The notes beneath the pieces were generated by a model, which ran no database searches, was not told where the DNA came from, and worked only from the letters and a program-made list of their open reading frames with translations. 23,622 nt of DNA from the NCBI GenBank assembly GCA_036939355.1, contig JALLAP010000082.1, positions 1 through 23,622 on the forward strand. The letters are read 5' to 3'. Within the stretch, counting starts at the first letter, position 1. Each line of letters opens with the position of its first letter. The position numbers and the translations under genes were made by a program. This DNA comes from Thalassiosira profunda (Eukaryota; Bacillariophyta; Thalassiosirophyceae; Thalassiosirales; Thalassiosiraceae). This document shows, in pieces, positions 1,872-23,252 of this stretch.

Positions 1872-4800
1872 ATGGCGGCCCCTGACGACGGGACCGCCGT
1901 CCCGTCGGGCGGCGGCGAGCCAGAGGAGGAGGTTGTGGCGCGTGAACTTCTTGGGCCTCCGCCCACTTCCGCGGCCTCTCAAGGTGGCTCGACGACGAGG
2001 ACGGAAGTGAGGATATGTGTTCGCATGATGTTGCTGCCAACCTCAACAGGCGTATCTTTGCCCCTTCTATCCAAACACCCGTGCCATCTTCACTGATGCA
2101 TACCGTTTCTATTTGCTACTTCTCAGGAGGTACATGCTGGACAGACCCATTGTCCCGAACCGTCGCCGGGCGACTGCAGCGGCGTCTTCCAAGGTGGCAC
2201 GGATGGCCCCACCGCGCGGGCGGATTCCTCCGAGCTTAACGGAGGGGCAAGCATGGGAGCAGTCGAGCTTGCAATGGGCTGCGATGCTGACAATAATGGC
2301 GTCCCATTGGCGACCCCCAAGGACCTGTGCAAAGCACCAAATCTTCATGATGATGGCAGTAGTAGCAAGCAGCCTGCCGGGGAGGATACGTCCGTCGCTG
2401 AGCTGAATGGCGAAAGCGCATCTCTTCCTGGGGCAGCGGCTGATACTCCAGCCTCAACTCATAGTGCCGACGCTCCAAAGCCAACGCTGCTGTTAGAGTC
2501 GAAGCTTGCTTCGACGAGAACGTCCTTAGCAGATTTGCCTGCTGCTGATTCCTTCGCCGCCGCCATCGAAGAACATGCCCCTGCAGATAGAGTCGAGGGC
2601 GAGAATTCAGAACTGTCCGTTGATGCACCTCTCGGCACCATGGATGTGGATGATCCAAAGCAGCCTGCAGTGGTCACGCCCGCCAAGAATGGATCTGAAG
2701 GAAGCGACATCTCCGACAGTACACTGGGCAGTCCCAGGCCCTCGCCATTGCTCAAGGATGCAACGGAGCAAAACGCAGCAGCGAATGATCTATTGCCGCC
2801 CAAGCTCGTCGTGGTTTCCGGCACGTCTTCGTCGGCTTCTTCATCGGCCTCGATTGCATCTTCTGCTTCCAATGGCAGTCCCTGTGATACATCGAATTGC
2901 GAGGGCACGTCTTCTGCAAAACCTGGCGCAGGAACCGAAGATGGAGGCGTCGCGACCATGGCCACTACATCTAGTGAGATTAGCAGCCCCGACGCAATTG
3001 ATGTTCGAGTCAAGAAGGCTGCAATGCAGTCAATGTCTAGTGGTCAGGACCTCCCTGGGCCTGGCTGGAAGAAGGCCACCTTTTGTAGTGGAGACAGGGC
3101 CCGCCCTCTCTGGGTCTCTCCTGACGAAGGGACACAGTTCGACACGAAGCGGGAGGCCTTTCAGTTTGATGAACTTTGCAAAATGCATTCGACCGAAGTT
3201 GCAGCCTTGGGGGCTTTCAAGGCAATGAAGAGAAGGCTGGGAGAGAATTTCCGGATCAGGACTGCTGCTATCGCTGCCAGCATAGGCGATAATGCACTTC
3301 CGACTTCCGAGGAGTCTGATGAGTGTTACATCTGCGCGGATGGAGGCGGTAAGTGAAACTATCTCGAGAAGTCGATATTATGCTCGGATGTCTTGCTTGT
3401 ACCTCACAAAGATTTTGTTGTCTCTTCTAGAACTACTCTGCTGCGACCACTGCGACAAGGCCTTTCACTTGTCTTGCCACATGCCTCGACTGGAGTCAGT
3501 GCCGCAGGGCCCCTTCATGTGTATGGAGTGCCTTGCGCCTCTTCTCAAGAGAAAGTATCGCTGTGGCGAGTGTCAAGAGTGTACGCGTGAGGATTGTGGC
3601 AAATGCCACTATTGTCTAGGCAAAAAGAGGTTTGGTGGCGACGGATCGTATGGCAAGCCCTGCAAGTTCAAGCGGTGCAAAAATCTGCGATACGCTGCCC
3701 CAGAGAAGATGCCCAAGGTCGATTCTAAGCCTGGAAGGGCTGCAAAAAGGAAGCAGAAGAAGCAGAGCATGCCCAACAAAAAGTCGCGGACGGATGCGAG
3801 AGATGCAGCACAGAATTGCACTACGTTCAGTCGGAGCTCGCCTGTAAGGCAGCCTCCAGGACCAGGATGGAAGCACCAAAAAGTCACGGAGGGTGATGTG
3901 AACGTGTTCTACTGGATTTCGCCGAGCCGAAAGATCGTGTTTCAGAGGAGGGCGCAAGCATGCGACTTCGAGGAGCTCAGGAAACAGCACCGTGGAGATG
4001 AATTCCGGGCGTGGGGAGCGTACAGGGAAATGAAACGAGGGCATGACACGTTGGTCGTCAATGCCGGTCAATACGACACTGACGTGACCAGCGGCGTTTC
4101 CACCAAACGGTCGGCGGACCGCACTGCTGGCAAAAACGCTCAACCTGCTTCCAAGAAACGCAAACCAACGAAGCGCAACGCAGTGATCACACCGTTCAAG
4201 CCCTGCCCCCCACCAATGCATGAGGACGGGCTAAATTGCTCAGACTACAAGATCGTCCGTCTTATGAAGACTGCCAAGGTGACATTCTTCCATCAGCGTT
4301 TCCCAGGGAGAATCCTGCGCGTCAAAAGCAACCTTTCGGACGGCACCCCTCCGGAGAAATCAATCGTCCAGCGCGGCGCTAAATACACACTTGCTTCGGC
4401 CAAAGTGCTTAACGAGAAACCAGGCGGGCCAAAGGTCTTTGGCCATGCAAAGAAGATCGAGTTGGTGTACGTTCAGAAGCAGGGGCTTCAAAAGGAGCTT
4501 GCGAAGGTCTGCGCCTTCTCTTTGATGACGCCAGAAAAGATTGTCGCGAGACTTGGTAAGAACGAATGATGACAAGTACGGCGTCTATCGCGATGATTCT
4601 CTAACCCTTCCATTTACCTATAGCCCACCTCCAATCAGAGGCGCAAAGCATTTGCTACGTCGACGTCTCGAAGATCAAGACGATCAAAGAAGAGGGGCAC
4701 GAAGGTAAACAGATGGCACGTATTATTAGTTCACATGCACCAGTACTAAGCTCCATCTACTTTCTTTCAGGCTGCGGGTATTATCCAGATGGTTTCTTTG

Positions 4801-6169
4801 ACGAATGGGCGGACGAGGAGGGCTGCGAGCGAGGACGACGCGGGCTGAAGAGCTGCGATGCGATTCAGGTACGGGTCGTTGGGCCGCAGCTTGGTCTCGC
4901 AAAGGGTATGTTGCTAAAGAAGCGAGGAATATCTCACATCCAACTACCGAAGAGTATGATGAAGGCACCACCAAGCTCAACTTGCACGGATACCTGGGCG
5001 GCTGTGGTGATCAAGAACATGTTCCCGAGTGCCGAGAACCAGAATCTCGGGCGCTACTTGGATCCAAACGAAGTAGCAACTAAAAGTTGGAAGAAGGGAG
5101 ACAGGCGGAAGCCATTGAGCCCAATGTATCAGCGGATGGTGATTGGTTATGGAGTTGACGTCAGGGCTGTCAAGGAATACGCCAGGCAGTCGAAAAAGGT
5201 CACCAAACTGCGACATGGTGAGTGCAAATGATGTGATCAGAGCCAAAGCAAGTGCTGTGCCCCGCCCACGTCGTTTCAGCCCACTTGAAGGGAGTCATCG
5301 ATCCGACAGGGTTGCTACCAGAAAACAAGGTGTTCGTTTCGGGTTACATCAACGATGGCGCGGGAGGACGCGAGCTGTTTGGCAAAACCCACCGCAAGAT
5401 TTTCCTCTCGCGGAGTCCGTCGGTGGCGCCAGAGGACGCAAAGCTCGTGTCCGTTGTTGGATGCAAGCCCAAAGATATGAGCGCAGAGGATTGGAAGCAG
5501 CTTTGCTCGTACGACTTCGGTACCATCGTCTTCCCCAAGACCAGAAGGGGCTCTGTGCCCTTGCCGTGTATCATTGCAGGTAAGTTTTGCTTGCTCGCTT
5601 TTCTTCTGAATCTTCTCGCTTTACAATCTTGTTATCGCGATAGACGGAGACCTTGATGGTGATGATTACCTAGCGCTGTGGGACGAGAAGATAATGGATG
5701 GTCTCCTTCGTTCGAAGGACAAACTCGCTAGGAAATCGAAAGTGCTGCTTCATAAGCTTGAGCTTCCCAAAGGAGTCACGCATTCTGTCAACAAGGGCAC
5801 TACGTTTTCGGATGAGTCCGATATCAAGTGGCTGAGCAAATCCCAGGGCTTGATGCTCGATTTTCCCACGCAAAGGGCTGCATCCCAACTCGTTGGCAAG
5901 CTCTATGGCTTATGCAAAACGGCATCGGAGCAAGCCAACGGAAAGTTCGACATATACAATGAGGACGCGGTCGCTTATGGAAGGTAAACGAGTTGAGCCC
6001 TGCAGCAGTTGCGATACGAATATCTTCTCACTTGCTCGCATGTGTCCCGCAAACCAGGGCGTACAAGGATGTTCTCGACGTCCAAAAGCACGGCGGCAAA
6101 GTATTTTTGCCAGAACATCTTCACAAGACTCTGCCGAAGTCTCTACGAGCATTGTTGACGTCGGAGTAG
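1872..6169 (+). CDS. Chromatin-reader/RNA-dependent RNA polymerase fusion: MBD-like, PHD, CXXC, MBD-like, RdRP
   Basis: Eight exons: 1872-2006, 2127-3348, 3431-4555, 4624-4704, 4771-5217, 5280-5579, 5644-5983, 6058-6169. All introns are GT-AG (62-120 nt) and the joined length is exactly 1254 codons. Residues 46-350 are acidic, Ser-rich and probably disordered. Residues 354-417 form an MBD-like module (GPGWKK, WVSP, FDEL). Residues 443-487 are a PHD finger with all eight ligands (C445, C448, C457, C460, H465, C468, C483, C486) and the DGGELLCC start typical of readers of unmodified H3. Residues 495-538 are a CXXC finger with eight Cys and KRFGG. Basic NLS-like stretches lie near 545-572 and before 710. 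A second MBD-like module spans 594-656. From about 720 to the end is a cellular (RDR/QDE-1 type) RdRP, with GCGYYPDGF, an IQVR/GLAKG segment, [10 protein letters not shown] and the metal-binding DLDGD at 1106-1110. The family makes dsRNA for small-RNA silencing; nuclear, chromatin-directed action is inferred. ATG 1809 is a less likely start. Confidence 0.85.
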
Positions 6170-6262
6170 GCAAGTGAGGGATGCCAATCGGGAAAATATG
6201 TGTTTGGTATTAGGAGAAAAGTTATGTGTGTTGGCCCGAAGCGTGTAGAGGAGGAGGAGTGA

Positions 6263-9129
6263 TCAGACTTCAATCATCATGTTGCTGTAAAGTATGGCCA
6301 CGAGGTGAGATGTGAGATGAGGTGTGAGAAGGAAATCAGAGAGGAAATAGAGAGAAAAGACGGCTGGAGCGCACCCGTCTTTGTCTGTCTTGGCGCACAA
6401 GGCGCCGCCAAAGTCTGTAAAGAGATACACGATACAACTCGAGTTAGGTGAATGCATGTCATGCGCTTTCACTTGCATACATGCATGGTCAACTCACACG
6501 GCGTGCAGGGCTTGTCGTTCCACTCCCTGCTCTCTGGGTCGTGGATTTTGTGAAATGTGTCGATGGCGGTGTGGGCTTCCGCTGTTTCTCGAGACCACGT
6601 GTCAAACGCCAGGGTTCCATTATCTACTCGTCGGAAGGGCGACATGTTCATCCGGCGTTCGCGAGCCACGGAAGCAGCCCGTTTGTACAGTTCGCGCCCC
6701 GGGGCGTCCATTTCCAGCGCGAGTCTCTTGTACGAACACTTGGCGTCCAATCTCTTCTCGTCGGTGGATTGAATTTGAGAAACAATATGCGCCGTGATAT
6801 CCCTCACGCAATTGTTGGGAGGCGGCCAGAGACGTTCGCAAAACTGCGCAGCCGCCTTCTCCAGACAAGAATTCGCTCCTCTGCTTGTCGGGTGGCAATC
6901 TGCCGTCGGGTCGACGGCTGGGTTGTAGATTTCAATGGAGTACTCTTCGCCAAAGAAGGTCATGGCTCCCGCGTTCAAGAACTCCCAAGCGCGGGTTCGC
7001 GTGCACGTCAGGCCTTCTGTCTGGTTGCAAAGCTCGTCGAGTGTCTCCCAGTAAATCGGTTCTCTCACAATGGGATGGTGGTCTTTGGCGGCCAACTTGC
7101 CCCATTTGAGCAGGGCATCGACGGGCTCCTCGTCTTCCAATATGACCAGATCGGGCAGCTTGCCCTCGTAAACGTGCATTGCTTGGTCAACGGCCGTGTC
7201 CGGCTCGACCAACACCGCTTGGAGCACAGCGACGAGGAATATCAGCCACATGGAGAGGGTCCAAGTGAATGCAGGGTGCACCTTGCCTCTCATGCGCCCA
7301 GTGCGTGTGACGATATGCAGAGTGGCCAGGAGCACAGCAAGGATGCCCACGCAAAAGAGCGGGTGCTCCACCACTGCTTTGGCGGCGTCCTCTTTGAGAA
7401 GCTCCGCCATCGTGCTGCCAAACGGCAGGTTGACGAAGGCTGATCGATACTTGACGCCCACGAACTGCCGCTGACAAGTCTCGTTCCCCTGCAGACAGGA
7501 ATGCACAGCGTTCATGAGACGCGAGACGAATCGCAAAGCCAGGAACACACTTCGTGGGCACGCACAAACTTCTCGTAGTCGAGCTTGGTGATTTCGGTCT
7601 TCTGGAAGACGACCGCCCTCGTCCTCTCGCACACCACTTCCGGCTTCTTGCAGATTTCGTTGAACTTGACCACTTGGTCGTGCAGAGTGAGGTTGCGGCT
7701 CTTTCGCACGCTGTACAAGACGTCGGCCACTTCCTCGTTCTCCCAAACTACGAGCGGGCCAATTGTGGCATTGCCCATTGTAAAATTGCGATCGTAGTGT
7801 TTGACGGCCTTTCTGCGCTGGCAGTTGACGGTGGGCTTTTCGCAGAGCTGGTCAACAACGCCTCGAAAGTCCCAGCCCTTCTTGAAGAGTCCGTTGGAAG
7901 CGAAGAAGGCACTGTGGGAGGAGAAGCACACGAGTCAGCCTCTTACAAAAAGGCAGTAACTGACTGCAGAGTCAATGGGCAACTCACTAAATGTCATCGA
8001 CGGGCTCGTGCCCAATCAACAGTTCCAGTGTGTTGACGTAATCTCCGTCAGGGCTACTGATTGGGATCTTAAAGTAGGATGCCCTCTGACGGTTGCAGAC
8101 GACCAGGTCAGAGCCACACACGGAATCCATGATGCTTGGCATGTAGCTCGTAGCCACGCCATTGTCCTTGCACCACGAGTAGACCTTGTCGGCAGGCTCT
8201 TCGTTTTCGTAGATGGTCAGCGTGTTGATGGGAGCGCCGCCCTCCGCGTTGATTTTCTGGTTGTACACGACGCCGAAGTTGCGCGTGCATTTCAGTCGAG
8301 CGACGCCGCAGGCCCGTTGCAGCAGATGATTCTTTAGCGTGATCTCGTCCAAGCTTTGGTTGGATTTGCGAATGAAGCGGACGGCGGCATCGATCACCTC
8401 CTCGCCCTCGAAAACCTCCACGTCTCCAATGGTCCTGCCATCTGTCGTGGTGACGGTTTGTCGATACAACACTGGCACTCGACGCGTGCACGTAACGGAT
8501 TCGCAGATCACAAATAGCAGGTTTTGCCGGAAGGCAGTGCGATCGCCGACATCGACCGGAAGCGTCTGCACGAAGCTATCGACGGTATCCACCGCCTCGT
8601 CTCCGTCCAAGATTTCTAGCAAACCCAACGGCTTTCCATCCTCGCTTGCGATTTGGTTGTGCCAAATGCGAGGTCTCTTGCGCAGGCACGGCACAAGCTC
8701 GCAGAGCTTGGGCAGCAGGGCGTCCCTCAGTCCGTCGAAGTGCGATTCGATCGATTGCTCCTTTGCAAAGTTGTAGAGCGCGTCGACTGGTTGGGTACCG
8801 TCGTCGTACAATGCAAATGCGCCCGAGAAGGATGCATCATCCTGAAGCACGATGTCCTGGGAGAATAGCAAAGCAAACTCCCTCGAGTAGGGAACGCCTG
8901 CCTTTTTTGCTTCCTCCAAGATGGTCCTACGAGCGCTGTGATCGACGCCGTACGGCCGAAGGGCAGTAAATATCGCGTCGGCGGGCTGCTCTCCCTCCCT
9001 GATCACCACGTTGGATTGCCATCTATTATCGATATCGACCGCCCTCTGAAATATAATGGGCGCTTCCGCCCCTGCAGCCGCGACCAAGGAGGCCAGCAGG
9101 TGGCCAACGGCGATCAGGACCCTCAGCAT
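6263..9129 (-). CDS. Secretory-pathway membrane protein built of repeated ExExPxD / CxnCxR units
   Basis: Four exons on the minus strand: 9129-7988, 7911-7566, 7488-6498 and 6414-6263, joined by GT-AG introns of 76, 77 and 83 nt, giving 876 residues. The true ATG at 9129 begins a signal peptide (MLRVLIAVGHLLASLVAAAG). About eight degenerate units of roughly 75-95 residues follow. Each has an acidic core such as REGEQPADAI, YENEEPADKV, WENEEVADVL or LEDEEPVDAL, and most then show Cys, 5-8 residues, Cys-x-Arg (CESVTCTRR, CKKPEVVCER, CNQTEGLTCTR). Two hydrophobic segments at about 539-556 and 571-591 separate the last unit from the rest, so both ends probably face the lumen or cell exterior. The C-terminal region is Cys-containing and ends with a short Leu/Phe/Tyr-rich tail in the last exon. 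The second intron has an alternative donor at 7550 that adds five residues. I do not recognise the family and assign no function; paired Cys suggest disulphides. Confidence 0.75.
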
Positions 9130-9371
9130 TGCTACACACAACGAGCCCCAAGAGACCAACCAACAAACGATGCTGGCTCGACTACCCCTGCTCCTTCCCT
9201 GTCTCGTCTCTGTGCTCTCGGCCTCCCGGGTAGAGGAGGAGACGCCCTTCCGGGAGGGACCCAGCCGGCCGATTTGGAAAGTTTAAACATAAATTTGAAA
9301 TCAGCTCGAATTTTCAAAAAAAGCTGAGACGCTTCCTCCGAGTCCGAGAATCCTTGTTGGATTGGACAAAC

Positions 9372-9992: not shown

Positions 9993-11570
9993 TCACAAGT
10001 CGCTAAAGAATTCCTCGTTGGCTGATCTGAAGAGCTTCTCTCGTTGCTTGGGCTTGCCGCCACCTCCATCTTCGCCACCGGAATCATCAGAATCGATGTC
10101 GCTGTCCTTCATTTCGTCATCCTCGTCCATGTCCTCCCAATCGTCTTCGCTGTCTTCTCCAGCTGCCTTGGTAGCTGCTCCTTTCAATCCTGGAGCTGCT
10201 TTCGGCGCGTCCTCTTGCATCATCCCTTCCTCTCCCCCCTCTTCGTCATCATCGTCCTCATTCAAGACAGACGCGTCCCACAACCGTATGTATTCGTCGT
10301 GGCTGACACTTCCAACCACCTTTCTCCCAGCGCTAAACCCCAACCCCTCAATCGGAAAGCCATCGTGCGCCCCCAATACGCCCAGCAGCGAGTTGGGCAG
10401 CAAATTCACCGCGCGGACCAATCCATCCGAACTTCCTGTCAATACGGTATCCTCGTCGACCTTCAACAACGCGTCGATGCTTTGCGGATGGCCCGGAAAG
10501 CGGTCCGAGATGTCGCCCCAAATATTGTAGCTGAAGAGGGATAAAATGCCCTGCTGGGTGCCCACCAACAGCTTCGCCCCGTTCTTGATCAACGCCAGGC
10601 TGAGCAATTCGTCCTCCTGGTTATCGGATTGGACGTACCCCGACGTGTCCCACGTGGACTTTTTGCCCCGGCTGCTTTGCGGCGGCGCCGTGGGAGTGTG
10701 GGGGTCGACGTCTTTGACAGAGACGGAGCGGGGCGTGTTCTTCCGATTAACGAAGCGCACGTCCAAGACCGAGAGCGTCCCGTCGGCAGATGAGGCGAAG
10801 AGGGTGGTGCCTTCGGCGTTCGTTTCGAAGTCGGTGATGTAATCGTGGTTGACCTTCCAGTGCTGTATGCACCCCGTGGGCAGCTGCATCAAATTGTCGA
10901 ACGGGTTGCTCGTTCGTTCGCTTTGGGCGCTGCCGCACATTCTCGTATCCCACAGGCGGACGGTGCCAACGTCGTCGCCCGTCGCCAAGGCAGGGCCGCA
11001 GGGCGAGGAGTGTGGCAGCTGGTACAGCTTGTTGATGCCCAAGTTGTGCGCGTTTTCGACCGACCAGAGGATGGGCGATGGGGCGTCCGGGTTGTTGGCG
11101 CTTTCCAGACGGCAGGCGCGTTCCGTGTCGAGGCAGCGGAGGGATCCACCGTTGCAAACCGTGTAGAGGTGTTCTCTGCCCGACTGCGACATGCTTGCAT
11201 CGTCGCTATTGTTCGATGGTGGTCTTGAGAAGAGGACGCTTCGACAGCTGGGGCCCTGGGAGGCCTTGCCTATCGCCCGATCGCCCGACGAGGCATCCGC
11301 CTTGGCGAGCATCTGCGTGTTGCTCTTTGAGGGAGGCGCCTCCTTGGCCACTTGAATAGAAGCCAAAATGGTGTCCGCCTCTTCGTCGCCCTCCATTCCG
11401 TCGTCCCCGCTATTGGTGGAGGCGGCGGCGGGAGCATCGTTCTCGGGTTGCAAATCGTGAATCTCGACGGTGCCGTCGACCAGGCCGGCGGCCACGAGGT
11501 CCTTGACGGGGTGGAACGCGATGGAGAGCGGCTGCGCCGAGCACTCGATGGGCCGGAGGGGCGTCGCCAT
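9993..11570 (-). CDS. WDR55: WDR55/Jip5-like WD40-repeat protein
   Basis: A single exon of 525 residues. The chosen ATG at 11570 gives MATPLRPIECSAQPLSIAFHP, which aligns with the WDR55 N-terminus (LAFHP..DLLAAG.VDG). The open frame continues upstream only into Arg-rich sequence that looks like UTR. WD40 blades are visible as LVDGTVEIHDL (about residue 30), DVGTVRLWDTR, ADGTLSVLDVRF, QQGILSLFSYN, SDGLVRAVNLLP and DEYIRLWDAS. An unusual acidic low-complexity insertion follows blade 1 (about residues 45-85). After the propeller there is a long Asp/Glu-rich stretch and a basic end finishing in FFSDL, the typical FF-x-DL tail of this family. WDR55/Jip5 proteins act in the nucleolus in rRNA processing and large-subunit biogenesis. 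The stop codon overlaps a GTGAGT sequence, but the conserved tail argues that the protein ends here. Confidence 0.85.
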   Translation of the reverse strand: MATPLRPIECSAQPLSIAFHPVKDLVAAGLVDGTVEIHDLQPENDAPAAASTNSGDDGMEGDEEADTILASIQVAKEAPPSKSNTQMLAKADASSGDRAIGKASQGPSCRSVLFSRPPSNNSDDASMSQSGREHLYTVCNGGSLRCLDTERACRLESANNPDAPSPILWSVENAHNLGINKLYQLPHSSPCGPALATGDDVGTVRLWDTRMCGSAQSERTSNPFDNLMQLPTGCIQHWKVNHDYITDFETNAEGTTLFASSADGTLSVLDVRFVNRKNTPRSVSVKDVDPHTPTAPPQSSRGKKSTWDTSGYVQSDNQEDELLSLALIKNGAKLLVGTQQGILSLFSYNIWGDISDRFPGHPQSIDALLKVDEDTVLTGSSDGLVRAVNLLPNSLLGVLGAHDGFPIEGLGFSAGRKVVGSVSHDEYIRLWDASVLNEDDDDEEGGEEGMMQEDAPKAAPGLKGAATKAAGEDSEDDWEDMDEDDEMKDSDIDSDDSGGEDGGGGKPKQREKLFRSANEEFFSDL

Positions 11571-11967
11571 GGTGGTGATGGGGCGTGGATTGGGTTGCTG
11601 GCGTCGCCGTCGGAGGAGTGCGTGCTCGCGCGGACGGGCCGAAAATTGGTGGCTGTGAAGACCCCTCCGTCTGGCCCTGCGCGCCGCCTGCCTCGCTCCT
11701 CTCTCTTCGATTTCCATCCGCTTCCCCCTCCCTTCTACAAGGTCGCGTCGCACCCTTTGCCTCCGCCCGGCCGCCCTCACCTCAGCCGCGGCTGTCCGAC
11801 TGGGTCACCTGGTTGTCCTCATCGACGACGATTGGCGAAGCAGTTTTGACCGATCGGTTTCGTTGTATCGCACAGAGGCAGAAGCAGAAGATACCGTGAC
11901 CCACAAACATACAATCACACCCACACATCACGGAAGCTTTCCTGCTCTCGACTTTTGCAAATACAAC
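11571..11967. other. Divergent promoter region between the WDR55-like and Lys-rich genes
   Basis: 397 nt between two divergent start codons. The half next to the WDR55-like gene is GC-rich and can be read in frame as an Arg-rich extension, judged to be 5' UTR. The half next to the plus-strand gene is AC-rich and ends in TTTTGCAAATACAAC immediately before the ATG. No other feature is seen. Confidence 0.5.
11954..11961 (+). promoter_or_regulatory. TTTGCAAA motif just before the Lys-rich protein gene
   Basis: An 8-bp palindrome ending 6 nt before the ATG at 11968, one of four such motifs close to plus-strand start codons in the window. It could be a transcription-start or factor site; its role is inferred from recurrence only. 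Confidence 0.25.
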
Positions 11968-12624
11968 ATGGAGGAGCCGCCGAAGATTGAACGTATCGTC
12001 GCGTCTCGTGGAGTTCCCCTCTCGGATACTGCATCCATCCTGAAGCGATACATCTCTACCGTCGACCAGCATCACCTCCACCACGAATCAGCAACGCCGG
12101 CGGACGATGACATCGACGACGACCTCGACGAAGCAATATCAAATGCAATCGACGCCGAAACGGCCACTCCCACCCGCAAGAGCCGGCAGGAACTGGAGGA
12201 GGAGCGTCTCATCGCGCAAATGGACCGCCTGGCAGATAGCAATAAAACGACGATCTCAGACGATGTCTACGAGCGATTGAAAATGATTACCGACTCCATC
12301 TGCGCCGAGGTGGAGGGCAAACCTTTGAGCGCCAGCGCGGCGAAGAAGAGGGCCGCCAAGAAACGGGCCGTCAAAACAGAGGAAGGGGCGCAAGATATGA
12401 ACATTGACGAGGGAGCGGAGGAATTTCTGGCCGATTTGGAGGAGGCGGAGCGGACGGAGGAAAAGGCAGAGACGCCGCAACAAACACCAACCCAAACGAA
12501 GAGAGACAAGAAAAAGGAGAAGAAGGCAAAGAAGGCCGCAAAGAAGGCGAAGAAGGAGGCCAAACGAAAGGCGAAGGAGTTGGAGGGGCAAAGTAGTGCG
12601 AAGAAGGTCAAGGTTGAGAACTGA
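11968..12624 (+). CDS. Uncharacterised Lys-rich, probably nuclear/nucleolar protein
   Basis: A single exon of 218 residues starting MEEPPKIERIVASRG; an in-frame upstream ATG at 11863 is less likely because the intervening codons look like UTR. The N-terminal third has an acidic patch (PADDDIDDDLDEAIS). The middle is a predicted charged helix (RQELEEERLIAQMDRLADSN, then DVYERLKMITDSI). The last 60 residues alternate Lys and Ala (KRDKKKEKKAKKAAKKAKKEAK) and end KKVKVEN, which resembles nucleolar and nuclear localisation tails. I do not recognise a family. Base and codon use match the neighbours and no intron is evident. It shares a 397-nt divergent spacer with the WDR55-like gene, so co-regulation with ribosome biogenesis is possible but unproven. 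Confidence 0.7.
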   Translation: MEEPPKIERIVASRGVPLSDTASILKRYISTVDQHHLHHESATPADDDIDDDLDEAISNAIDAETATPTRKSRQELEEERLIAQMDRLADSNKTTISDDVYERLKMITDSICAEVEGKPLSASAAKKRAAKKRAVKTEEGAQDMNIDEGAEEFLADLEEAERTEEKAETPQQTPTQTKRDKKKEKKAKKAAKKAKKEAKRKAKELEGQSSAKKVKVEN

Positions 12625-12784
12625 GAACTAACCCGGGCGTCGGAGCGTTTGGGCGACTTTTGAGAGACACAACGATGCTTGGCTTCGGCAGATGATGCTG
12701 GTGTGAGAGCAGTGGGGGACTGGCCCTCCGTGGCGGCCCCGGGGGCTCTCTGCGGCCCGCTCCTATTTCTCTCTATGAAACTGC

Positions 12785-12848
12785 CTAAGCATCAGCCCCT
12801 CTACCAGAACCCCGATTGTCCTAGGTGGATTTTCAGGTTGGTGCTTAG
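12785..12848. repeat. Long hairpin: 13-bp outer stem and 5-bp inner stem
   Basis: The left arm CTAAGCATCAGCC (12785-12797) pairs completely with GGTTGGTGCTTAG (12836-12848), allowing two G-U pairs in the plus-strand RNA. Inside it, CTACC (12801-12805) pairs with GGTGG (12824-12828) with one G-U. The G-U pairs favour folding as plus-strand RNA over minus-strand RNA. It could be a small structured RNA, a UTR element or chance. Confidence 0.35.
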
Positions 12849-13034: not shown

Positions 13035-13106
13035 ATCACCAGCGTAGGTACCGCCGCGGCTGCGAAGTGGAAGGACATTTCCTTACATCCGCGAATCTGG
13101 CGCATC

Positions 13107-14528
13107 ATGAACGACGACGCTCCTAACAGGCCCGCCCTGCGGCGGTCGACCCGCACCACGCGGGTCGCCCGTCCCATCGATGCGCCGTATTGGGAGTCGC
13201 TCGGCTTTGGGCCCACTCATGCGAGGAACTTGTCGTTCTTCACGTATTTCGCATGCACCGGGGGCACTTCTTATGCGCCCAGAGATGGCGATATCTTCGT
13301 GCCATTTCACGAACAGCTTCTTCCGCATTGGAGGGTGTTTGCAAAGTGGATCGAAGATGACATGAAAGATGACGGAGAGGGTGAACCTAGCGACAATATG
13401 GAGATCAGCAATATTGCCATGCCCAAGCAGGCGTTTGATATCGTGACGCCGGTGGTGCTGCGGATGAAAGGTCTGATGCGGATCAATTTCAACAACAATG
13501 GTTTCGGCCACGATGGCTTTGTCGCGGTGACGGAGATTCTTAGGCACCACAAGACGATTTGTGAGATGCACCTGACAGAACAGCCCCAGATAAGCGCCGA
13601 GTCGGCCGCTGTATTGTCCGAGGCAATGAGGGACCACCCCTGCCTCAAGAGTCTCAGATTCTCGGAGAATGGTGTGGGGAGGAGCACGGAGGTGCTGAAG
13701 ACCATCTTGGAGGGGGTCAAACACATGACCCGCGTGGACTTGAGAAACAACGATATTGACGCGACGTCAGGTGGAATCATCGCCAACTTTGTTGCAGAAA
13801 ACCACCCCTCCCTCTCCATCTTTGACCTGGAAGGCAACGGATTGGACGACAACAATGTGCCTGCTCTTGTGGATGCGCTGAAGAAGAACACCAACCTCAA
13901 GATTTTTGACGTTGTGAACAACCAGATGTCCATCCTTGGACGCGAGGAAATGATCAATGCGGTCTTCGATACGTCATCTCTGAATGCAGTGGTGGCATCC
14001 AATCATACTTGCCAACTCCACGTCACGCCAGAGGGAGCTCCGACCGTAGCGGGTGGTATGTTCGACTTCATGATGCGGGTGATGACAGGTTCTGCTGGGT
14101 TCGGTTCTGGGTTCAGCGATGGAGTGGCACACGAGGAGACAATGAAGCAAGTGAATGAGATGGCGGAGAAAGACGAAATAGTCCGGTACAAAGTTCTCCG
14201 AGCACTTTGTGGAAGCAAAAGACGAGAGCCGGTGCCCGTGCAACTGCGATATTTGAATGATCTCGACGTGAAGTGCATGCCAGCGGTATTGGATCTGATT
14301 CAGGTGAAGTGGCACATCTCTCAGCCCATATTTGCCCTTGGCCGCCGGCGTCTGGCTAATACGAGATGCTGGACGGGATCGCTCGATCGGGTGTTCCACG
14401 TCGTGAAAAGCTGGCAAATGCCTGCGCTGTTTGAGTATGGCATCAGTTCGGCAAAAGCATCCGGGAGTGAGAAAGCGGCCGCATCTGCGCCTAAAAGGAA
14501 AGCGAGGGGCAAGCGGAAGAGAGGTTAG
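13107..14528 (+). CDS. Leucine-rich-repeat protein (ribonuclease-inhibitor type) with basic C-terminus
   Basis: A single exon of 473 residues starting MNDDAPNRPALRRSTRTTR. From about residue 120 to 300 there are six or so LRRs of 27-29 residues, of the ribonuclease-inhibitor class: LMRINFNNNGFGHDGFVAV, ICEMHLTEQPQISAESAAV, LKSLRFSENGVGRSTEV, MTRVDLRNNDIDATSGG, LSIFDLEGNGLDDNNVPAL and LKIFDVVNNQMS. A helical region with no recognised domain follows. The last residues (APKRKARGKRKRG) form a strong nuclear-localisation-like tail. No kinase, NB-ARC or membrane segment accompanies the repeats. LRR-RI proteins of this plain type are common in protists and act as protein-binding scaffolds; the partner is not predictable. 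The frame is open upstream to 13020 without a better start. Convergent with the Obg gene, 50 nt away. Confidence 0.8.
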   Translation: MNDDAPNRPALRRSTRTTRVARPIDAPYWESLGFGPTHARNLSFFTYFACTGGTSYAPRDGDIFVPFHEQLLPHWRVFAKWIEDDMKDDGEGEPSDNMEISNIAMPKQAFDIVTPVVLRMKGLMRINFNNNGFGHDGFVAVTEILRHHKTICEMHLTEQPQISAESAAVLSEAMRDHPCLKSLRFSENGVGRSTEVLKTILEGVKHMTRVDLRNNDIDATSGGIIANFVAENHPSLSIFDLEGNGLDDNNVPALVDALKKNTNLKIFDVVNNQMSILGREEMINAVFDTSSLNAVVASNHTCQLHVTPEGAPTVAGGMFDFMMRVMTGSAGFGSGFSDGVAHEETMKQVNEMAEKDEIVRYKVLRALCGSKRREPVPVQLRYLNDLDVKCMPAVLDLIQVKWHISQPIFALGRRRLANTRCWTGSLDRVFHVVKSWQMPALFEYGISSAKASGSEKAAASAPKRKARGKRKRG

Positions 14529-17913: not shown

Positions 17914-20900
17914 TTAGTACTTCTTCTTGCCGCGAACCTTCTTCTTTTGGGGCTTGCCTCTCGGCTCGCTGTGAAGCATTGACGCCGCACTCGTCGCTGC
18001 GCCAGCAAAGAATGGATTCTTTGGTGGGGCTGCATTTGGGTCGAATGCTCCCATGCCCGCGCCCATGCTGTGGTAGTCGACGGTCCCTCCGCCGCCACCT
18101 CCCCTCGCCCCAGGCGCATTGCCCTTCTTGTGGTGCGGTGCTCCGCCCTGCTTTTCCTTTTCATCCGGCGATTGCGCATCGTTGCGGACTACGGCCAGCG
18201 ATTCCGCGTCCTTCTTGTCTTTGCACCAACCCAATTCCTTCATCAATTGAATGTCGCTCTCTTTTCCCTCTTTCCCGGGCGACGCCTTCTGTCGTTTGTT
18301 TCCGCCTGCAAAGTATCCACCGGGCCCGCGGGAGGCGATGATTGCCTCAGCCTTTTCGAGATCATCTTCCTCCAGCTTCTCAGCGTTCAATGCGACCTCG
18401 CTCTCCGGAAATTGCAACGATTTAGGTGCGCCCTTCTCCTTGCCAGGCTTTCGTCGGTTGGCGTTGCTGAGAGAGTAGATCTCTTTCATACTCTTTGGAA
18501 TGACCAATTCATTCTCCTCTGGAGTCGCCTCTAGAGTGCTGCTGTCAACACCAGAGCCATCGGCAGTTGCGCCATTCACATCCTGGCTATTGTCATAATC
18601 GATGCCCTCTGATTGCGACATGGGGCGGATAAGATCCATGAGACTGAAGCCGTTGCCAAACTTCTTGTCTGCAGCACGGCCTTCGCCAATCTGTATCATC
18701 TCCTTCTTGATTAAGTTTGCACTGCGCTGGGCCACTTTCGCATCCTCTTCAATTGACGCTCCAGCATCGTTGCCCAAGGCAGTGCGGGCAGTCGCAAGGC
18801 CATCGGCAGAAGCTCCTCGATTCCCTTTCGCATCTTCGTTCTCCAGCGACGGTGGCGACATTTCCAAGCTGTGCGAAGAGTACTGCGTCGATTTATATCC
18901 CTGATTGGCGGCATTGACATCCAAAAACTTGCGAACCCCTTCGTCGTCTTCTGACTCGGATACCCCAGACGACCCACTTGCTCCTGGAATCGTTGGCGTC
19001 ATCCACCCTGCTTGTTGATAAAGAGCTTCGCTTCCAAGGATTGGGCTGAGCATTTCGCGGTTGCGGCTTTTCTGGGGCGGCAAAGCATGCTTGCTCGCGG
19101 CAGCCTTTGCCCCTGCATCAGCTGCTTTGGGTTTCTCCGTCATCTTGATGGCATTCAGTATCTCTTGGCTTCTCCTCATCACAAGCGGTGGCAGTGGATT
19201 GACCAAGCGTTGCAAAGCGGCCACTGTCGCTGGACGATTGCTGGCAATTCGCAGCAGCGCCGAATTCGAGCACACGTACTGCACTGATTCGTCCTCCTGT
19301 CTAGCTGTCTGGTCCCTCCAGTTGTACAGCACCTTCAGGGCTTCCTCCTGCTGCGACGACAGCTCAGAAGTCACCTTGCTGCTCTTGCTCCCACCGCGGC
19401 GGCGCGACCTACCTCCATCCATAATTGTCTGATAGCCGGATGGACGGAAGGGTTCCTTGTCGTACCGGATCAGACACACCAGCTTGCTCCTATCCAAAAC
19501 GGCTTTAATCGAAACGTCCGCCATTGAATGCTGCTCCAACTCCAACCGAAGCTGATCGTAAATGTCCAGCAAATACCGCGTATCGGAAACGGCATATCCC
19601 CGCATGTCCTCCGGCAGCGGCCTCCTCCTCCAGTCGCTCAGCTGGTGGACCTTGTCGGCCTCGATGCCGGCATATTTCCGCAACAGGTACGCCAACCCTG
19701 CGCTCGTAAATTTCAATGCACGCGAGGCACGGCCAGTGTCGAATAGGTTCACGACGTAGCATCCAAAGTCCCGCTGGAGCCACGGGATGTCCGAGTCGGC
19801 GCCATGCATTACCTTCAATATGTTGGGATTGGCCAGAATGGGTCCAAGGTGGGCGGGGATGGCGTGGCGCAGGGCAAGGGCGTCAATGAGGAAATCCTTG
19901 CCAGTGGTATCTGCGGACAGCGCTATGGGATGGCGCACGCTCAGTTGAATCAAACAAACAAAGCCGGCGAAGGTACGATGGGAGTGCGCCTCCAAGTCGA
20001 TGGCAAGCTCCTGGATCTCCCCACTCTGTTGGCCGTCTGTGATGCGCAGTACAAGCTGCGCAAGTTCCTCCTCCTTTCCAACCCAAATGCCGTCGTTCTT
20101 GTCGTGTTCCCCTTTTATGGGTCCCTCTGCCTTCTCAATCCCCGCAACATCCAGCTGCCAGGGGCGATATTCCAAAGCCTCAATCTCCTCTCGGTAGGGG
20201 TGCTCGCAGTGATGCGATGGCGCCACCATATCTGGCGCGTATTTCCGGCGGGTAATATCCCCCTCGCCCTCCCCGCCCCCACCGCCATCGAAGCGGGTGT
20301 CCAGCCCATGCCCCTCCTTCGTAAACTCCCCTCCGTCCAACTTGGCCTGCTTGGCTGCATCGTACACAATCGTGGGCACAAACGGCTCCTCCCGCGAATT
20401 TTGGGGAGGCTGGGTGACAAATCCCTGGAACACGTTCTGGGGCTTCTCCATGTCCGCCAGCCCCTCGAGCATGCGCCCGTAGGCCCCCGAGGCCTTGGTC
20501 CGGGCCCGCTGCGACGCGGTGCCGAGGGCGGCGGCGAGGGTGTCGTAGCCCTCGTCCCCGCCCTGCCGGCGCTCCTCCTGGGCAATGTGGGCGGAGACCC
20601 GATCGTAGAGGGCGTCGCACGCGTCGGCGCACTGGATTGAAAAGAAAGGTGCATGAGATGTGCGCATGTTGCAATTTGATGTGGAGAAACGAGTGCCGCC
20701 TCTTACCTTGGTCCACAGCTCGGGGTCGTCGAACTCGTAGTCCTCCACGCCGTCCATTGCGGCATCCTCGTCAGTTGAAATTCCCTCCAGCGCCTGAGAG
20801 AGCAGCGAGGAGAGAGACTGGCGCGCCTCGGTGTTCAGGGAGGAGAATTCGGGGAGGGACATCTGGAAAGAAAATTCGTCATCTCCGTCCTCCTCCTGTG

Positions 20901-21000
20901 CGTCGTTATTTTCGCGGGAGAGGGGCAGGGCGTTGACAGCCCGAGCTCCGAGGGCCAGCGAGGCCAGGAGCTTGGGGAGCGATGGCTCATCCGCGCCCAT
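17914..21000 (-). CDS. RRP6: Rrp6/EXOSC10-like exosome 3'-5' exoribonuclease
   Basis: Two exons, 21000-20707 and 20631-17914, giving 1003 residues. The 75-nt intron (GTAAGA...CCAG) is in frame and has no stop, so an unspliced reading adds 25 unlikely residues between PELWTK and CADACDALYDRV. An N-terminal PMC2NT-like region (Rrp47-binding in the family) covers about 50-200. The DEDDY exonuclease lies at about 300-480: AIDLEAHS supplies the first Asp and Glu, HGADSDIPWLQ the next Asp, and YAVSDTRYLLDIYD the last Asp with its Tyr. An HRDC domain follows at about 520-600 (EALKVLYNWRDQTARQEDES, then ALLRIASNRPAT). The long C-terminus is charged, probably disordered, and ends in GKPQKKKVRGKKKY, a likely nuclear signal and exosome-binding lasso region. 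The protein trims rRNA, snoRNA and aberrant RNAs in the nucleus. Catalytic residues appear intact. Confidence 0.93.
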   Translation of the reverse strand: MGADEPSLPKLLASLALGARAVNALPLSRENNDAQEEDGDDEFSFQMSLPEFSSLNTEARQSLSSLLSQALEGISTDEDAAMDGVEDYEFDDPELWTKVRGGTRFSTSNCNMRTSHAPFFSIQCADACDALYDRVSAHIAQEERRQGGDEGYDTLAAALGTASQRARTKASGAYGRMLEGLADMEKPQNVFQGFVTQPPQNSREEPFVPTIVYDAAKQAKLDGGEFTKEGHGLDTRFDGGGGGEGEGDITRRKYAPDMVAPSHHCEHPYREEIEALEYRPWQLDVAGIEKAEGPIKGEHDKNDGIWVGKEEELAQLVLRITDGQQSGEIQELAIDLEAHSHRTFAGFVCLIQLSVRHPIALSADTTGKDFLIDALALRHAIPAHLGPILANPNILKVMHGADSDIPWLQRDFGCYVVNLFDTGRASRALKFTSAGLAYLLRKYAGIEADKVHQLSDWRRRPLPEDMRGYAVSDTRYLLDIYDQLRLELEQHSMADVSIKAVLDRSKLVCLIRYDKEPFRPSGYQTIMDGGRSRRRGGSKSSKVTSELSSQQEEALKVLYNWRDQTARQEDESVQYVCSNSALLRIASNRPATVAALQRLVNPLPPLVMRRSQEILNAIKMTEKPKAADAGAKAAASKHALPPQKSRNREMLSPILGSEALYQQAGWMTPTIPGASGSSGVSESEDDEGVRKFLDVNAANQGYKSTQYSSHSLEMSPPSLENEDAKGNRGASADGLATARTALGNDAGASIEEDAKVAQRSANLIKKEMIQIGEGRAADKKFGNGFSLMDLIRPMSQSEGIDYDNSQDVNGATADGSGVDSSTLEATPEENELVIPKSMKEIYSLSNANRRKPGKEKGAPKSLQFPESEVALNAEKLEEDDLEKAEAIIASRGPGGYFAGGNKRQKASPGKEGKESDIQLMKELGWCKDKKDAESLAVVRNDAQSPDEKEKQGGAPHHKKGNAPGARGGGGGGTVDYHSMGAGMGAFDPNAAPPKNPFFAGAATSAASMLHSEPRGKPQKKKVRGKKKY

Positions 21001-21359
21001 GGTGATGGTCGTTGGGCGGCGCGGGCCGGCATGCAGTCGGTTTCGGGTTTCGGTTTATTAGTGGCCCGGCGGCGCACCAAACGCGCGTCCTCTAGTAGAT
21101 AAATAAGTAGTTCTTCTTCATCTTCCCCCACCTAAAGGACGCGGGCACAACGTCCCAAATTTTTAGATATCGTAGTACTCGGGTAGGTGACACACACAGG
21201 GGTGAACCAAAAACAGATGAACCATGCCGCCTCGTAGGACCGCCACGCCGCTGAACTGAACCTCCAGTAGCCGCAGAGGGGGCGACCAGCCGAGAGATAC
21301 TCGGAAGCTAGCGAGCAGGGCTGTCCATTTGCAATCTCAACGCTTCCCCCATTGCAAAT
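21001..21359. other. Divergent promoter region between Rrp6 and CAX genes
   Basis: 359 nt between divergent start codons. No convincing coding sequence is present. It ends with a 9-bp inverted repeat (ATTTGCAAT ... ATTGCAAAT) abutting the CAX ATG. A pyrimidine-rich stretch lies near 21108-21132. Confidence 0.5.
21327..21359. promoter_or_regulatory. 9-bp inverted repeat ATTTGCAAT/ATTGCAAAT abutting the CAX start codon
   Basis: Perfect arms at 21327-21335 and 21351-21359 with a 15-nt spacer; the ATG begins at 21360. The core matches the TTTGCAAA motif before three other plus-strand genes. If transcribed it would be a hairpin at the start codon; otherwise it is a dimeric factor site. Confidence 0.35.
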
Positions 21360-23252
21360 ATGTTCGGCCGGCGGCTGTCGCTGCCCTACCGCCTGCCCGA
21401 CAGCGCCCCGACCTTCGCCCACGGCCTCCATGCCGACCTCATCACGTCCACCGAATTGATATTCCGGAGTCGATTGACGTGGCTCCTCATCTTTGGCCCC
21501 GTCGCACTGGTGGGCAAGACGGGCATCTTCGGGGAGTCGACGTGCTTCGTCCTCGCGGGCCTCGCGCTGATCCCGCTGGCGGAGCGATTGTCCTTCGTGA
21601 CGGAGGAGGTGGCCAACCACACCAACCAGACGATCGGGGCGTTGCTGAATGCGACGTTTGGGAATGCCCCCGAATTGCTGATCTCGAGCGCGGCGCTGCA
21701 GGAGGGATTTTATCGCGTGGTTCAACTCACGCTGCTGGGATCGATGCTCACCAATCTGCTCTTCGTGTTTGGACTGTCCTGTCTCATTGGGGGACTGCGG
21801 TTCCAGGTGCAGGAATTGCGAATCGTGACGGGGAATGCCAGCATCGGAATGCTCATGCTCGCCGTGGCGGGGATGGCCCTGCCCGCGGCCCTGATGTTGA
21901 GCGATGAGATGATTTCCCACGAGGGGGAGCGGGAATACGTCGACAAGAACGGCGATGGGAAGAGCGACATCAACGACGGGCCGACGTTTTCCATGGTGGG
22001 ATTCTCGCGGTTCAACGCCGTCATCATGNGGCCGACGTTTTCCATGGTGGGATTCTCGCGGTTCAACGCCGTCATCATGATCGTGGGATACCTGCTGTAC
22101 TTGCTGTTCCAGCTGGGATCGCACAGCGAGGAGTTTGAGGATCTGGAAGAGGAAGAAGCGGAGGGTGAATCCGTGCATATGAACGGGACGAATCATGCAG
22201 ACGAAGAGGAGGGTCACGTTCGCATGCCAAGGGCAACAGCCCCCAAGAGGAAGAAGCGAGCGAGGAAGAACAAGTTTTGCCATCGTGTGATGTGGGGAAA
22301 CAGAGGTCTCGAAAATGAGGATGAACATGACGAGAGAGGTGTGTACGGACAACTAGCGCGAGAGGGCTCGATAAGGGAGATGGAGCTGTCTCCCCGGATC
22401 GTCGAGCTGGAGCCCGTATTAGAAAGCCAGTCGCTGCATAATGACCTCCCACAATGCCGACCCGACACGAGGAGCAGCAAAAATGATAGCGGAGAGGCCA
22501 GCAACACGAGCAGCAGTCGGAGACGGGTGGGGCTGAAGGCGGACGAGGACGCGGCAGAATTGGCAGCGCGGGAGCAAATTAAAAGCCGGGGAGGAATATC
22601 GCTCCCGCCACAACCGCCCAATGGCCGATCAACTGCGGGCAAAAGCCATTGTTCAGATGAACCGGAGGATGAGGAGCCATACATTCTGTCGCCGGACCTT
22701 CTATCAAATCACAGAAACGACGAGGAGGAAGTTCACATGTCGTTCAAAGCGGGTCTGTTTTGGCTGTTCATCATTACAATCAGCATATCTGCCATGAGCG
22801 ACATACTGGTCGACACGATAGATGGATTCGCCTACCGTTACGGGATATCCGAGGTCTTTACCTCGCTGATCATCCTCCCCTACTTCAGCAACATTGCCGA
22901 GCAGGTGTCGGCCCTGATTTTCGCCTACCGTAATGAGATGGACTTGTGCATAGGAATCACGGTGGGGAGTGCCGTTCAGATTGCACTATTCGTGCTTCCT
23001 GGGAGCGTCCTCATCGGCTGGGCAATGGATAGGAGTATGTCTCTGTTTTTTCGTGGATTCGAGACATGCTGTTTGATCTTCAGCGTGGTTTCCGTGGCGG
23101 CGGTGTTGCAGGGCGGAACGACTAATTGGCTCGTCGGCTGTTATCTACTTGGTGTTTACGCCATGATCGCCGCAGGCTTTTGGTATCATGAATTGGAGAA
23201 CCTCTCGGTAGACGGAGAGCTGCTCAATCTGCACAATCACACGGGGTCATAA
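21360..23252 (+). CDS. CAX: CAX-type Ca2+(cation)/H+ exchanger with EF-hand-like loop; assembly duplication inside
   Basis: A single frame of 630 residues as assembled, starting MFGRRLSLPYRLPDS. Two clusters of hydrophobic segments flank a long hydrophilic region. The first alpha-repeat has GNAPELLISS (101-110), the signature ion-binding helix of CAX proteins. The second has ILPYFSNIAEQVSA in place of the usual PIVGNAAEH, keeping Asn and Glu but not Gly or His. Between membrane segments, DKNGDGKSDIND (195-206) reads as an EF-hand-type calcium loop. The central loop holds the expected acidic helix (EEFEDLEEEEAEGE), then about 200 mostly disordered residues with a RKKRARKNK cluster. CAX proteins move Ca2+ into vacuoles or out of the cytosol in exchange for protons. 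Bases 21979-22028 and 22030-22079 are identical and separated by N; collapsing them removes 17 codons, keeps the frame and gives 613 residues with one normal membrane segment (VIMIVGYLLYLLFQL). Confidence 0.9.
   Translation: MFGRRLSLPYRLPDSAPTFAHGLHADLITSTELIFRSRLTWLLIFGPVALVGKTGIFGESTCFVLAGLALIPLAERLSFVTEEVANHTNQTIGALLNATFGNAPELLISSAALQEGFYRVVQLTLLGSMLTNLLFVFGLSCLIGGLRFQVQELRIVTGNASIGMLMLAVAGMALPAALMLSDEMISHEGEREYVDKNGDGKSDINDGPTFSMVGFSRFNAVIMXPTFSMVGFSRFNAVIMIVGYLLYLLFQLGSHSEEFEDLEEEEAEGESVHMNGTNHADEEEGHVRMPRATAPKRKKRARKNKFCHRVMWGNRGLENEDEHDERGVYGQLAREGSIREMELSPRIVELEPVLESQSLHNDLPQCRPDTRSSKNDSGEASNTSSSRRRVGLKADEDAAELAAREQIKSRGGISLPPQPPNGRSTAGKSHCSDEPEDEEPYILSPDLLSNHRNDEEEVHMSFKAGLFWLFIITISISAMSDILVDTIDGFAYRYGISEVFTSLIILPYFSNIAEQVSALIFAYRNEMDLCIGITVGSAVQIALFVLPGSVLIGWAMDRSMSLFFRGFETCCLIFSVVSVAAVLQGGTTNWLVGCYLLGVYAMIAAGFWYHELENLSVDGELLNLHNHTGS
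21979..22079 (+). repeat. Perfect 50-bp duplication around a single N (assembly join)
   Basis: Copies at 21979-22028 and 22030-22079 are identical, with one N at 22029. This is the signature of two contig ends that overlap but were placed side by side. The unit including the N is 51 nt, so the CAX frame survives with or without it. Confidence 0.9.

Follow-up and report, generated by a model that had tools for sequence, protein, structure and literature searches.

A cellular RNA-dependent RNA polymerase fused to PHD and CXXC fingers in the diatom Thalassiosira profunda

Positions 1 to 23,622 of contig JALLAP010000082.1 of the diatom Thalassiosira profunda (assembly GCA_036939355.1), hereafter the window, carry a gene in which a cellular RNA-dependent RNA polymerase (RdRP) is fused to a PHD finger and a CXXC zinc finger, and the same architecture is found at two more loci of the genome, in a transcript open reading frame (ORF) of a relative and in annotated proteins of several species. 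Each of these domains is known, and it is their combination in a silencing-type RNA polymerase that we have not seen described. The product may be a chromatin-docked RdRP of thalassiosiroid diatoms, whose double-stranded RNA (dsRNA), made in cis, would feed silencing, a reading to which we give a probability of about 0.5.

The polymerase and its reader cassette

The preliminary description of this DNA had proposed a gene of eight exons and seven GT-AG introns for 1253 residues, and this model was reproduced when rebuilt from the raw sequence (Table 1), with introns of 62-120 bases each, all seven GT-AG, and, 5' of the ATG, an in-frame TAA at 1776. As had been stated, exon 3 carries the CXXC finger, the second repeat module and the start of the polymerase; it does so without a stop codon. 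In the 1253-residue protein, the PHD, zf-CXXC and RdRP domains each score over their curated Pfam cut-offs, with 29.1 bits against 24 for PF00628 and 69.6 against 23.8 for PF05183. The full C4HC3 ligand set of the PHD finger, the eight Cys and KRFGG of the CXXC finger and the DLDGD of the polymerase were likewise borne out, by profile matches, for the CXXC finger also by motif comparison and for DLDGD by alignment to QDE-1.

Table 1. Positions, in the window, of the fusion gene and its parts
Feature	Positions	Strand	Details
Whole gene	1872..6169	+	8 exons, 7 GT-AG introns, 1253-residue protein; reader cassette and RdRP
MBD-like diatom repeat module 1	3054..3236	+	residues about 355-415; from alignment; MBD membership not shown
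PHD finger	3324..3531	+	residues 445-486; interrupted by intron 2 (3349-3430); PF00628 E 1e-6
CXXC zinc finger	3547..3678	+	residues 492-535; eight Cys, KRFGG kept, KQ replaced by YGK; PF02008 E 2.7e-8
MBD-like diatom repeat module 2	3856..4065	+	residues about 595-664
RdRP fold	4240..6166	+	residues about 723-1253; from the end of exon 3 through exon 8
Catalytic DLDGD motif	5649..5663	+	residues 1106-1110; directly 3' of intron 6; aligned to QDE-1 GDYDGD

The core is of the RDR/QDE-1 type of cellular RdRP, to which the polymerase fold predicted for a relative also points, and the 3' exons, 5-7 included, match PF05183. DLDGD is intact in the window polymerase, in those of the two further loci (named after their contigs, C149 and C49) and in 44 of the 54 fetched proteins. 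Among the other ten, the P0009 model stops before the position of the motif, P0035-P0039 are five module proteins without an RdRP match, a pattern search found no motif of this kind in P0032, P0053 and P0054, and P0040 (Conticribra weissflogii) may be inactive or wrongly sequenced because it has DLVGD instead. P0040 would suit a catalytically idle scaffold, in which the RdRP fold merely binds RNA on chromatin, but the wide retention of DLDGD and a ratio of replacement to silent change (dN/dS) of 0.12 in the polymerase core make such a scaffold very improbable.

Recurrence of the fusion and its constraint

At C49, a PHD-CXXC ORF is joined by a phase-0 intron to an RdRP ORF, 53-54% identical to that of the window, and an NCBI model of T. 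profunda (P0006) spans the same two junctions, being identical to C49 at 1021 of 1119 aligned columns. PHD, CXXC and RdRP occur together in five of the 33 matches of the first protein search (P0003-P0007), of which P0003 is transcriptome-derived and marked complete, and P0040 was a further such protein among the 24 matches of the third search. In P0034 (Thalassiosira sp. AJA248-18) all three are present, its PHD and CXXC lying under the cut-off, and P0009 (T. exigua) combines PHD and CXXC with the polymerase start, ending at the equivalent of the exon 5/6 junction of the window. In databases these proteins are labelled either hypothetical protein or RNA-directed RNA polymerase. Discostella, T. 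profunda and Conticribra are all Thalassiosirales by taxonomy. No transcript ending between exon 3 and exon 5 was found, the transcript evidence being that of a relative, P0003, whose ORF spans PHD, CXXC and RdRP.

The join had first been noticed by eye in a single contig, and one scaffold join lies elsewhere in the window (at 22029), which might suggest that a chromatin-protein gene and an RdRP gene had been merged by the gene model or the assembly. However, the same domain order at two further loci, in the transcript ORF and in several species, together with the stop-free exon 3, makes such a chimera scarcely credible, and it was set aside.

In a polymerase tree of 36 sequences, which was built without P0009 (dropped, 291 residues) and without P0034 and P0040 (found later), the eight PHD-CXXC rows form one group with P0001 and P0002 (support 100/98). 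As these two lack PHD and CXXC, the PHD-CXXC label requires two changes on the tree; P0001 lacks a start Met and is apparently truncated. The sister of this group (100/100) is P0008 of Cyclotella cryptica, which resembles the window protein in its PHD finger and in the type of its repeat modules but differs in having a chromodomain and a bromodomain. It has no match to CXXC, although by eye a Cys-poor remnant can be made out. Farther relatives carry chromodomains (P0015, P0042), KOW motifs (P0013, P0029, P0044) or helicase-associated domains (P0010), and we infer that this RdRP lineage gained different N-terminal modules more than once. Another RdRP of the genome (L027, contig C890) is 36% identical, has a KOW-like N-terminus by eye and falls near T. 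profunda P0032 in the tree.

The C149 copy, in an assembly of 21.8 Mb and 1366 contigs, shares with the window four collinear blocks (197-1765, 1854-2310, 2639-9157 and 9993-12648) of 84.7, 80.2, 87.0 and 86.4% identity, which are separated by unaligned gaps, and an extra 30-base match at 12819-12848, while 13050-14500 is single copy in the genome. It may be a haplotype, a segmental duplication or the product of mixed strains. Over the 792 codons aligned, which run from exon 3 to the stop codon, 90% of the residues are identical and the overall dN/dS is 0.172, the PHD part having 0.137, the CXXC finger 0.014 and the polymerase parts 0.215 and 0.121, and in the six introns compared, GT-AG is kept though they are only 59-87% identical. 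Because the long start of exon 2 of C149 spans two frames, its N-terminus is not claimed. Repeat 2 (dN/dS 2.23) and the linker preceding it (0.97) are nearly free of silent differences. Exon 3 differs at 102 of 1125 bases, whereas positions 3731-3955 differ at five of 225 and at no third position; this segment is likely a short, recent gene-conversion tract. An antisense ORF over it has 204 codons in the window and 160 in C149 and was not used for any conclusion.

Elsewhere in the window, a single N at 22029 between the copies of a 50-base direct repeat marks a scaffold join at which coding sequence of a sodium/calcium exchanger gene is duplicated, and the minus-strand gene at 17914-21054, with 3'-5' exonuclease and HRDC domains, is in our reading probably RRP6/EXOSC10-like.

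Putative histone and DNA preferences

The solved structures nearest to the PHD finger by sequence are those of CHD4, AIRE, TRIM66 and TRIM24, and the acidic residues in its DEC and CCD align with those of AIRE, which we take to act in the recognition of unmodified H3K4. PHD fingers of AIRE, TRIM24 and CHD4 prefer unmodified H3K4, and from this resemblance H3 reading by the window finger is plausible.

The CXXC finger has the eight Cys and KFGG-like linker of type 1 (here KRFGG) and is homologous by sequence to the CXXC of DNMT1, MLL1, CFP1 and KDM2. In excerpts of PMC3685328, type-1 fingers contact non-methylated CpG through a KQ or RQ tip, the place of which is taken by YGK in the window, C149 and P0034; C49 retains KFGG and LKQ, and LKQ is also found in P0006 and P0007. 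The preliminary description had suggested that the polymerase may read CpG methylation itself: as the CXXC tip is altered and an MBD profile match is absent, methyl-CpG reading is unsupported, though conceivable. Nine CXXC matches were obtained across the genome by profile search, and one further CXXC gene, with leucine-rich-like repeats by eye, is situated some 10 kb away from the PHD-CXXC-RdRP paralogue of contig C49 (L025 and L028).

Animal CXXC proteins are recruited to unmethylated, CpG-rich gene starts, and the diatom fusion might likewise go to active gene starts of this kind, where antisense RNA or dsRNA would tune genes rather than transposons. The tip of C49 carries the signature for non-methylated CpG (excerpts of PMC3685328), but the window copy lacks KQ, and a PHD finger of the H3K4-unmodified class, which this one resembles by sequence, would disfavour active starts. 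Moreover, the window has a CpG observed/expected ratio of 1.01, and the fetched loci taken together (among them 11 genome stretches, of which L025-L028 were inspected and the other seven entered only this count) have one of 1.0, so that these sequences showed no CpG depletion against which islands could stand out. Recruitment to gene starts is unlikely.

Of the two MBD-like modules previously described, the repeats are real, and their kinship to MBD is tentative: they are a diatom module with weak evidence for an MBD-like fold and no MBD sequence match. PF01429 had no Pfam match in the window protein at E<=1, and the eight families that 20 modules hit at E<=10 did not include it, a search in which HMMER filters discard most matches above 0.1; Foldseek with the repeat alone returned nothing at E<1. 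Compared with MBD1 over the residues that presumably contact methyl-CpG, the first loop of the repeat is five residues shorter. When the P0004 modules were used as query, eight proteins were obtained, four with a chromatin or RdRP link, by Pfam domains in P0004, P0009 and P0034 and by name only in P0039, a named BAH-domain protein with no BAH in its own scan; the remaining proteins had no match over a Pfam cut-off.

A possible place in small-RNA silencing

In the mechanism that we propose, the N-terminal cassette (MBD-like repeat, PHD, CXXC, MBD-like repeat) would dock on H3K4-unmodified nucleosomes and nearby DNA, and the C-terminal core would copy local transcripts into dsRNA, possibly also using single-stranded DNA as template, as QDE-1 can. 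The dsRNA would feed the Dicer-like enzymes of the genome, and the small RNAs would lead to DNA methylation and transposon silencing, with the CpG-competent C49 version and the altered-tip version of the window and C149 dividing targets. Two similar Dicer-like ORFs with paired RNase III matches are present (L049 and L050, contigs C746 and C178), with hydrophobic, membrane-like segments upstream by eye, and DNA methylases were matched on nine contigs. In Phaeodactylum tricornutum, small RNAs map to transposons that are methylated, and methylation guided by RNA has been proposed (excerpts of PMC4247016).

Several points weigh against this mechanism. Docking preference, nuclear site, template, on-site dsRNA and outcome are inferred, and the transcript that supports the fusion is P0003 of a relative, not one of the window gene. 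The CpG-contacting tip is absent from the window copy and P0040 has its altered motif; constraint could not be demonstrated for linker 1 (dN/dS 0.97), linker 2 (0.55) or repeat 2 (2.23, from one silent and eight replacement changes), the comparison beginning after the N-terminal 452 residues. In addition, since Piwi had no match in the 21.8 Mb assembly, whose completeness is not known, the Argonaute step is unsupported here; PAZ was also unmatched, an uninformative result since its control matched nowhere.

Fission-yeast Rdp1/RDRC works in cis at silent chromatin, as proposed here, and is tethered through separate partners, not fused readers. Plant RDR2 is brought to chromatin via Pol IV and partners, whereas the window protein has reader domains in its own chain. 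In DNMT3L/DNMT3A, through the ADD domain, and in the CXXC proteins DNMT1, MLL1, CFP1 and KDM2, an enzyme is gated by unmodified H3K4 or CpG state; that group modifies DNA or histones, and the diatom protein would instead synthesise RNA. We know of no PHD, CXXC or MBD-like modules fused to Neurospora QDE-1. QDE-1 interacts with RPA in a manner requiring QDE-3 (excerpts of PMC2950127). It can start from single-stranded DNA too (same excerpts), and the diatom enzyme might work mainly on such DNA at damaged or repetitive loci, its cassette holding DNA rather than sensing histone state, which we consider improbable.

As the preliminary description had supposed, no RdRP fused to PHD or CXXC was seen described in the open-access literature searched, including passages of PMC9998398, PMC3145265 and PMC4030286; T. 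pseudonana has three RdRP homologues, and their domain scheme (figure S2 of PMC3155517) could depict one.

A more tentative possibility is a silencing starter with two keys, the PHD finger testing H3K4 state and the CXXC finger and repeats testing DNA, so that local RNA or DNA is copied into dsRNA only where both agree. If this were true, two paralogues in one cell, one with a CpG-reading CXXC and one with a re-tooled tip under very strong constraint, would separate newcomers that are not yet methylated from other targets, and chromatin state itself would start small-RNA silencing in these diatoms, with no separate tether. It is still an open problem in RNA silencing how an RdRP comes to act at particular loci, a selection that plants and yeast distribute over several proteins. 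A conserved reader-polymerase fusion would allow this step to be studied by point mutation in one protein. For diatoms, which include a species with small RNAs on its methylated transposons (excerpts of PMC4247016), the fusion would be a candidate for what connects chromatin state with the making of small RNAs.
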